From a bacterium (GTDB lineage: Bacteria > Patescibacteriota > Saccharimonadia > Saccharimonadales > UBA4665), in NCBI GenBank assembly GCA_021781915.1, contig JAJXVX010000002.1, positions 1 to 34,470 on the forward strand: DNA of 34,470 bases, read 5' to 3'. Below the pieces are notes generated by a model, which was given only the letters and a program-made list of their open reading frames with translations, was not told the origin of the DNA and searched no databases. The stretch's first letter is position 1, and each line of letters begins with the position of its first letter. Both the position numbers and the translations under genes were made by a program. Below are positions 21,287-23,681 of the stretch, piece after piece.

Positions 21287-21362
21287 GCCGTCTTAGCTCA
21301 GCTGGTAGAGCGCTTCCATGGTAAGGAAGAGGTCTCGGGTTCAAATCCCGAAGATGGCTCCA
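21287..21362 (+). tRNA. tRNA-Thr (anticodon GGT), CCA encoded
   Basis: Acceptor GCCGTCT/AGATGGC, anticodon arm CTTCC-ATGGTAA-GGAAG, T-arm CGGGTTCAAATCCCG, CCA. Confidence 0.96.
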
Positions 21363-21381: not shown

Positions 21382-21410
21382 TTGACAATTTAAATAAAGC
21401 GATTTAAAAT
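21382..21410 (+). promoter_or_regulatory. Strong consensus-like promoter downstream of the tRNA cluster
   Basis: TTGACA (21382-21387), 17-nt spacer, TAAAAT (21405-21410). Confidence 0.6.
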
Positions 21411-21416
21411 GCTAAT

Positions 21417-21507
21417 GTTAAGGATGAAAACAAAACCATTCTTAAAATTCAGGTAACTTGTACAAGTACCAAAAAGAACTCCGGTTGATCCCCGGAGTTT
21501 TTTATTT
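21417..21507 (+). ncRNA. Candidate ~90-nt structured small RNA (or attenuated leader) ending in an intrinsic terminator
   Basis: Begins at the predicted start of the consensus promoter; three consecutive hairpins: 21418-21445 (TTAAGGATG/CATTCTTAA), 21452-21470 (GGT-a-ACTT/AAGTACC) and 21477-21499 (terminator). Confidence 0.45.
21477..21507 (+). terminator. Intrinsic terminator
   Basis: AACTCCGG-ttgatcc-CCGGAGTT 8-bp stem followed by TTTTTATTT. Confidence 0.8.
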
Positions 21508-21545
21508 CTATATTTCTTTTTAATCTGTTATAATATTTTATAATT

Positions 21546-21749
21546 ATGGCGAAAAAAGATAATAAACGTAAAATTATAGGTTTAGTAAGCGAAGAGAGCG
21601 GAGAACGTATATATTATACTTCTAAAAGCAGTTTCAACACTCCTGATAAACTAAGTCTTAAGAAGTACAGTCCTAAACTCAGAAAACACGTTTTGTTTAC
21701 TGAAACTAAAAAATCACTAGGTCGCAACGAAGTTAAGCCTAAAAAATAA
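21546..21749 (+). CDS. rpmG: 50S ribosomal protein L33, Cys-free form
   Basis: 67 aa; [50 protein letters not shown] matches the L33 pattern; TATAAT (21529-21534) 11 nt upstream. Confidence 0.88.
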
Positions 21750-21755
21750 TTTGTT

Positions 21756-23681
21756 CTAAACCCCCCTTAGGTCGATTATTGTATTGATTAACTCAGCATG
21801 ACTCCAGACTAAAGGATCTACACTAATAGGCGAATTAGTATGTGGATTTCTTTGTTCGCTCAATGTACCACCCGAAGACGCATAATTAATAACCCAATCT
21901 ATAATGGGTTTAGCATCCTGAGTCTTTTTTAGCGATATATAAATTTGAGCCAACCAAAGACTTGTCATTATCCAGGGATTTCCCGGTGTCTTTTCATCTA
22001 CCCTAAAATAATTGTCGTTATAGTATCTGATTACACCGTGATCTTCGTTATTATATTTTAGTTTTTCTTCAACGACTTTTAGGGTATTTTGAAAATATTC
22101 ATCATTTAAGTTAATTTTTCCGAATAAATAGATGCCATATAATGATGACATATCTAGAGTTTTATCGTATTCAAATTCATTCAACTCTGGGTTAAAAACA
22201 AAACCTTTAATGTAATATCCTAATGTTTTATCATATAATTTATTCAAACTTTGTTTAATTGTGTTAGAAGCATTTTGCCAAAAGTCAACGTACTGAGTAT
22301 CGTTTACTAATTTAGCTAAATTACAGGCTGAATCTAAGGATGCCATAACCAATGACGATGTGTAGGTTGTCGTTAAATATTTTTCTTCCCATAAATCATA
22401 GCTTGCGTGAGGTAGGCCGGTGTTAATATCGATATATGATGCCATAAAGTTGGCGGCGGGTTCGATTAATTTTTTAAAATAATAAGTAATCAGATCAATG
22501 TCATTCGATTCATTGTAGTATTGTTCTAGAAGGTAGATTACGATTGCAGTTTCATCCTCCTGAATTGTTAGCCGATTTCTACCATTTAAAAGCTGAGAAT
22601 GCCAAGTACTCCCAACTGATTTATCGGGCTGGTATTTATGCATTAAATATCCTTCAGGAGTGATAACTTCAGAGCAAAACTTAAAAAAGCTCTTAGCTTC
22701 ATCGAAATATTTTAATCTTAACAGTGGCCAGAGTGAAAAAGAGGCATCTCGCGTCCAACAATAAGCATAGTAATCTCTACCATAATTAAAGATTGATGAG
22801 TCGCCACTAGCGATTATAGTCCCATTATCGTTACAATGAGCTTTAATTATTAAAAGACTCCTGTTAATCTCTTTTTTATAATCGAGGTCGGTTTCCTTGG
22901 TTGGTTCAACCCATTTAATCCAATGATTTGTAACATATTTGAGACGATCAGACATCGAAGTTTTCATATAGTAATCATTCAATTTTCTGCCTTCATAAAG
23001 GTTCTCTATGGCTATAACCCAGTAATCCAATGCGACAGATGAGTTAGGCAAAAAAACTTTCTTAAATCTAATAGTGCTGTCTACGGAAGAATGTTCAACT
23101 GGATTATTAGAAAGCTCTCCATCTTCGGCATCTTTATAGGTACCAAGCTTTCCTTCTATATGATAGTTGCCAACTGAATACTGATCAAAACTTTTACCGT
23201 CTTCGAATTTACCATTAATTATTAAAGAAACTTTTCCTCGATAATCGTAAATGTAATTCTTATCTGGAACATAGAGTACGGTATCACCCCTACCTTCAGC
23301 TGATATTCTGAATACTTGATGCATAAAAATTCTGATTTCTCGTTGTTCGGTCGATAAATTATGGATATTTATATGTCTGATGAAAGTATTAAAATCACAA
23401 TCGATGTAGTCATTCATTTCCAATTTAATCTGAAGTTTTGTATTTTCCATAGTAATTTTACTGACTAAACTGTCCGGGACGTAGTTTAGATCTATTATCC
23501 AGTTCCCATCATTAACCCAGCTAAATTCATTATCAACAAAAACGCCAATCTTATGATGAAGGCTTCGAGCTGTAGTTAGATTATCTTGACCAACATATGG
23601 AAAATAAAAATCATTAACAAGACCATAGCGGTCGAGTCCGACAAAAAGGTTATTGTTGCTAAGAACTATTGGACGTGACAT
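21756..23681 (-). CDS. GH15-family glucoamylase/glucan glucosidase-like protein
   Basis: 641 aa; YAYCWTRDASFSLWPLLRL, GSTWHSQLLNGRNRLTIQEDETAIVIYLL, LPHASYDLWEE, TPGNPWIMTSLWLAQIY. Confidence 0.85.
   Translation of the reverse strand: MSRPIVLSNNNLFVGLDRYGLVNDFYFPYVGQDNLTTARSLHHKIGVFVDNEFSWVNDGNWIIDLNYVPDSLVSKITMENTKLQIKLEMNDYIDCDFNTFIRHINIHNLSTEQREIRIFMHQVFRISAEGRGDTVLYVPDKNYIYDYRGKVSLIINGKFEDGKSFDQYSVGNYHIEGKLGTYKDAEDGELSNNPVEHSSVDSTIRFKKVFLPNSSVALDYWVIAIENLYEGRKLNDYYMKTSMSDRLKYVTNHWIKWVEPTKETDLDYKKEINRSLLIIKAHCNDNGTIIASGDSSIFNYGRDYYAYCWTRDASFSLWPLLRLKYFDEAKSFFKFCSEVITPEGYLMHKYQPDKSVGSTWHSQLLNGRNRLTIQEDETAIVIYLLEQYYNESNDIDLITYYFKKLIEPAANFMASYIDINTGLPHASYDLWEEKYLTTTYTSSLVMASLDSACNLAKLVNDTQYVDFWQNASNTIKQSLNKLYDKTLGYYIKGFVFNPELNEFEYDKTLDMSSLYGIYLFGKINLNDEYFQNTLKVVEEKLKYNNEDHGVIRYYNDNYFRVDEKTPGNPWIMTSLWLAQIYISLKKTQDAKPIIDWVINYASSGGTLSEQRNPHTNSPISVDPLVWSHAELINTIIDLRGV

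Follow-up and report, generated by a model that had tools for sequence, protein, structure and literature searches.

Intergenic small RNAs of bacteria that act in trans share a set of traits: a small size, a sigma-70-type promoter of their own, hairpins in tandem, a 3′ end at a terminator and no conserved open reading frame (ORF). Two other kinds of RNA invite comparison with the locus described here, (i) 6S RNA, a small non-coding RNA folded into one long hairpin that is interrupted by a central bubble, and (ii) the leaders and attenuators of ribosomal protein genes, in which a unit with a terminator lies upstream of the gene. Saccharibacteria are very small, depend on a host and have reduced genomes; a full-text search of the open-access literature found no paper on their small RNAs.

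The window considered here (the whole stretch of 34,470 nucleotides from a genome of the order Saccharimonadales) holds, between tRNA-Thr(GGT) and rpmG, a unit with all the traits of the intergenic small RNAs, from which it differs in having no Rfam match, an invariant GAUC in the terminator loop of its family and a self-complementary tip on hairpin 2. It is like 6S RNA in being a small non-coding RNA gene, and unlike it in that the family has three to four separate hairpins and no match to RF00013: none of 31 genomes of the group exceeds the cut-off for this family, and the window's genome has no match at all. The likeness to ribosomal-protein leaders lies in the position upstream of rpmG and the terminator, the difference in the separate promoter of rpmG and in units that occur without rpmG. 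An earlier note on this DNA recognised no known RNA family in the unit, and a scan of the window and 23 related loci against Rfam 15 (4227 families, curated gathering cut-offs) bears this out, returning tRNA matches only. The best sub-threshold match scores 30 bits, with the cut-off at 100, and lies on the opposite strand, and the permissive matches look like chance; the long form of the unit, described below, has no permissive Rfam matches.

The unit is almost certainly a real non-coding RNA gene. There is good reason to think that its product acts in trans as an RNA, and the unit as a whole is probably an autonomous gene for a structured trans-acting small RNA of ~90 nt that represents the short form of a family in Saccharibacteria. 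The features of the locus are the following:

21287..21362, + strand: tRNA-Thr(GGT), the 5′ neighbour, outside the small-RNA unit
21382..21410, + strand: small-RNA promoter, TTGACA-17 nt-TAAAAT, 11/12 consensus positions
21417..21507, + strand: small RNA gene, predicted transcript ~90 nt with predicted start and end; covariance-model match 21414-21507
21418..21445, + strand: hairpin 1, 9 bp with an A-rich loop, from fold and covariation
21452..21470, + strand: hairpin 2, 12-nt gapless palindrome ACTTGTACAAGT at 21456-21467 with the self-complementary tip GTAC, from fold and covariation
21473..21503, + strand: hairpin 3, the intrinsic terminator, whose loop TTGATCC holds the conserved TGATC (21486-21490)
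21525..21534, + strand: extended -10 of rpmG itself (CTGTTATAAT region; TCTGTTATAAT), outside the small-RNA unit
21546..21749, + strand: rpmG (ribosomal protein L33), the 3′ neighbour, with homologs in 55/60 genomes

The tRNA gene, the unit and rpmG thus all lie on the same strand. The -35 element TTGACA (21382-21387) and the -10 element TAAAAT (21405-21410), separated by a spacer of 17 nt, form the top promoter-like site in the region, with a predicted start about 21417, and a -35/-10 pair stands at the equivalent place ahead of nearly all homologous units. The arms of hairpin 1 are UUAAGGAUG (21418-21426) and CAUUCUUAA (21437-21445). Hairpin 2 reads GGUA(A)CUU-GUAC-AAGUACC and contains one bulged A, a detail additional to the earlier description. 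The terminator hairpin has its core at 21477-21499, a full stem at 21473-21484/21492-21503 and a U-tract at 21498-21503. A predicted transcript of 92 nt folds at -26.7 kcal/mol (z -4.1), and none of 200 shuffled sequences folds equally well. The promoter, the three hairpins with their U-tract terminator and the separate -10 of rpmG had all been proposed in the earlier note, and each is found where it was placed; in the case of rpmG, the -10 is of the extended type and a promoter is conserved behind the terminator in relatives. Read on the other strand, the terminator hairpin (21477-21499) also has the form of a - strand terminator, with a CTTTTT tail; a glucoamylase-like gene (21756-23681, - strand) is convergent with rpmG, and its transcripts could stop there after antisense passage through rpmG.

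By DNA similarity, the entire unit is found only in the nearest relative, G001, and an exact-pattern search with 3 mismatches likewise reaches only this genome. The 50-nt core differs between the two by 1 base; divergence is higher in the promoter spacer, in the flank of the terminator and in the coding sequence of rpmG. Because the primary sequence evolves fast, more distant homologs have to be sought by synteny and covariance models. For this purpose, rpmG was located in 55/60 genomes and the sequence upstream of it was read for units before any model was built, so that the first ~13 units are homologs identified by position and not by similarity. In many genera this upstream sequence has the same order of parts: a TTGACA promoter, a hairpin with an A-rich loop, a short hairpin, a terminator with TGATC in its loop and then the ATCTGTTA-type promoter of rpmG. 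Other genomes lack the unit, and there the rpmG promoter follows directly after the tRNA.

Three covariance models extend this set. R1 (12 units, with structure for hairpins 2 and 3 only) gives matches, a few of them weak, in 32/93 genomes of the window's family. A first MAFFT alignment (A2) misplaced hairpin 1 and was replaced by a model from seven well-aligned members; this model, R2, holds all three hairpins and was built from seven units of genera other than the window's. The unit in the window is the sole R2 match in its own genome (E 1.1e-5), which is an independent confirmation of homology, and R2 also recovers the unit in 5/6 other species of the window's genus. R3 matches the window at 21414-21507 with E 1.8e-9. 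Over 393 genomes of the order, R3 matches up to E ~3e-4 are genuine and come from about 31 genomes in the window's family and 7 in a second family (f35); two loci at contig edges, L059 and L060, were placed by model coordinates. Weak order-level matches in G353, G344, G257, G301, G297, G191, G178 and G064 proved on inspection to be other terminators or coding sequence. In G006, a genome of the same genus that is 96 % complete, tRNA-Thr and rpmG have no unit between them (locus L008) and no model match lies elsewhere in the genome, which may reflect recent loss or strong divergence. By model, the unit is absent from about two thirds of the window's family. Together, these absences suggest that the RNA is dispensable or that it has often diverged too far to be detected.

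As expected of a bacterial small RNA gene with a secondary structure under selection, all helices covary. Across an alignment of 35 units, standard pairs fill 85 % of the paired cells, compared with 65 % after shuffling and 38-45 % when the partners are slid by 1-3 columns, and double changes occur in 26/28 pairs across the three helices. The covariation score is 0.481 against 0.171, and 0/500 shuffles reach any of the values for pairing, double changes or covariation. These values are somewhat inflated, the alignment having been fitted to the structure; the effect exceeds this inflation by a wide margin, as the slid controls demonstrate. Within the same 35 units, helix 1 has double changes in 12/12 pairs, helix 2 covaries, and helix 3 covaries with 97 % of its cells paired; a cleaner set of 22 units gives a similar picture. 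Covariation in relatives was one of the checks that the earlier note had called for, and its proposal of a self-contained, unassigned small-RNA unit gains support from the conservation, the covariation and the lack of an Rfam match. Conserved and covarying as it is in relatives, the predicted unit is beyond chance.

Hairpin 2 has a further property that is retained across the family. In 37/38 units it forms a palindrome without gaps, 6-14 nt long, with a mean of 10.4 nt compared with 4.8 nt after shuffling, counts that take related genomes as separate and that include G275, where the longest palindrome lies elsewhere. Its tip occurs in six sequences, UGCA, UAUA, GUAC, CGCG, GCGC and GAUC, all of them self-complementary. 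A random tetraloop is self-complementary with a chance of 1/16, so the repeated arrival at such tips through several independent changes is unlikely without selection; for five changes a rough figure is 1e-6, the independence of the changes being uncertain. Two copies of hairpin 2 joined in an extended duplex are predicted to gain 12 to 20 kcal/mol over two unjoined hairpins, with the costs of concentration and kinetics still to be subtracted. The self-complementary tip hints at RNA-RNA self-contact, and functional self-pairing of hairpin 2 can be put forward tentatively.

The loop of the terminator provides a second retained feature. It holds GAUC in 35/35 units, UGAUC in 32/35 and GAUCA in 32/35, with UGAUCC in the window; R1 and R2 include this loop, so later matches are partly selected for GAUC, and the first ~13 units found by synteny are not. 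Terminators of the group do not carry GAUC loops in general: among 98 distinct terminator-like hairpins in the examined loci, TGATC occurs in or next to the loop in 39, all of which come from the small-RNA element (on either strand), and in none of the remaining 59.

The long form has a fourth hairpin between hairpins 1 and 2 and is found in the second family and, within the window's own, in G063 and G108. This hairpin carries a nearly invariant GGGCACATTCCGATAAACAATTGAGGAAAGGGCC across the two families (L093, L094, L095, L151 and L155; L055 and L065), and G067 keeps its loop, GATAAACAATTGA, within a different stem. The named long-form records all belong to Candidatus Saccharibacteria/Saccharimonadia, including the complete genome CP011211.1, and a phylum-level search for the long-form hairpin gives chance-level matches only. 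Being common to two families, the long form probably represents the ancestral state, and the form in the window's genus would then be a reduced one; the fourth hairpin looks like a recognition or binding domain that was lost in the window's lineage.

A second RNA-like unit lies upstream of rpmG at L007 (G035), L030 (G024), L031 (G015) and L015 (G027). It has a GTGCTT...AAGCAC-type stem around inner hairpins, followed by a C-rich terminator, and no Rfam match; G035 and G024 carry both RNA units. The motif CRTAAGC, conserved in the promoter spacer, was considered as an operator specific to the small RNA and rejected, a family-wide pattern search having found it in many other promoters. The arrangement TTGACA-N-CRTAAGC-N-TATAAT recurs in many Saccharibacterial promoters (L099-L128, e.g. 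L110, L116, L118, L105 near 1501 and L104 near 638), and CRTAAGC may be a group-wide spacer motif or a regulator site. Right after the CRTAAGC promoter at L110 (G069), L112 (G071) and L116 (G075) stands a shared leader, TATTAGTTTTGAG, then a hairpin and an A-rich stretch; it lies upstream of differing sequences in the three genomes and is a possible further small RNA or leader.

The usual place of the unit, directly upstream of rpmG and on the same strand, would suit a leader with a conditional terminator that controls rpmG, an attenuator that might involve the peptide MKTKPFLKFR, as the earlier note offered by way of alternative. The ORF is present as described (21424-21456, with an in-frame upstream extension to two further ATGs), it overlaps hairpin 1, and its sole substitution in G001 is synonymous. 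The peptide, however, is shared only by the window's genome (G000) and G001. In G002-G005 the ORF is lost, changed or frame-shifted through differences in the length of the hairpin-1 loop while the hairpins are kept, and other genera have nothing comparable, so that conserved protein-coding potential is lacking, as is the conserved short ORF with regulatory codons that marks a leader-peptide attenuator. An rpmG leader should also keep a consistent 5′ UTR position with no intervening promoter. Here, the ATCTGTTA-type promoter is kept ahead of rpmG, behind the terminator where there is one, whether or not a genome carries the small RNA, and some units are unlinked: the gap to rpmG is a few hundred to ~970 bases in G075, G116, G021 and G109 (in G116 and G021 a gene that we take, from its translation, to be PspC-like begins within it), rpmG is not near the unit in G063, G108 and the second family, and the examined flanks in G063, G108, G176 and G240 contain neither rpmG nor tRNA-Thr. 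Given the unlinked units, the unconserved peptide and the rpmG promoter, a leader peptide and an rpmG attenuator both fail as explanations of the unit, and the earlier alternative is extremely improbable. Units without a tRNA neighbour also count against the view that the tRNA-Thr/Tyr/Thr operon merely has its trailer and terminator here, which might yield a 3′-trailer small RNA. The usual upstream neighbour is indeed tRNA-Thr, the stretch from tRNA-Thr(GGT) to the unit has no terminator-like site of its own, and tRNA transcripts may end at the unit. Yet most relatives have a near-consensus promoter between the tRNA and the unit, and hairpins 1 and 2 covary, which a plain terminator does not need. 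Read-through from the tRNA into the unit's terminator is possible in the window and not a general rule; the trailer as a full account is improbable.

The two retained features allow readings of their own. Nearly every unit has an inverted repeat that is perfect and gapless, and this could work as DNA, as an operator for a dimeric repressor. The palindrome lies, however, inside a covarying RNA hairpin of a unit predicted to be transcribed, its sequence varies between species while the hairpin architecture is kept, and TTCTTGCAAGAA is not repeated at other family promoters, the extra copies examined being coding sequence; an operator is thus very unlikely. The GAUC loop, in turn, might bind protein by imitating the 16S rRNA 3′ end: GAUCA, present in 32/35 units, is the sequence read by the KH domain of Era in single-stranded RNA at that end (PMC10582724). 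The putative interaction would here involve a hairpin loop, a 5-nt match is weak, and the window's copy is GAUCC, in which one of the two adenines described as the most important is lacking. The resemblance is a lead only, and such mimicry has little probability.

Returning to the small RNA gene, its sequence has its own promoter and intrinsic terminator (both conserved in relatives), three covarying hairpins, no conserved ORF and independence from rpmG. The RNA would be transcribed from its own promoter and act in trans, with the exposed loops, including the A-rich loop of hairpin 1, as the likeliest contact parts; that its loops are short and A-rich tells against such a role. The tip of hairpin 2 could pair with that of a second molecule, in a kissing or an extended homodimer, and the invariant GAUC of the terminator loop may be a protein-binding site or a pairing seed. 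A more speculative proposal, on balance doubtful, is a Saccharibacteria-specific RNA that acts in homodimeric form. Through sequence turnover, the hairpin-2 tip, and possibly also the terminator loop with GAUC, would stay self-complementary so as to join two molecules by loop-loop or extended pairing, and the ancestral fourth hairpin (loop GAUAAACAAUUGA) would be a near-invariant recognition domain, lost in the window's lineage.

The family is apparently uncatalogued and of an ordinary kind, an autonomous small RNA with an intrinsic terminator, with unusual retained self-complementarity. A conserved small-RNA family with clear promoters offers a concrete entry to RNA-based regulation in Saccharibacteria, and RNA homodimerisation can be put to a direct test in vitro, given the self-complementary loop that the family has kept.
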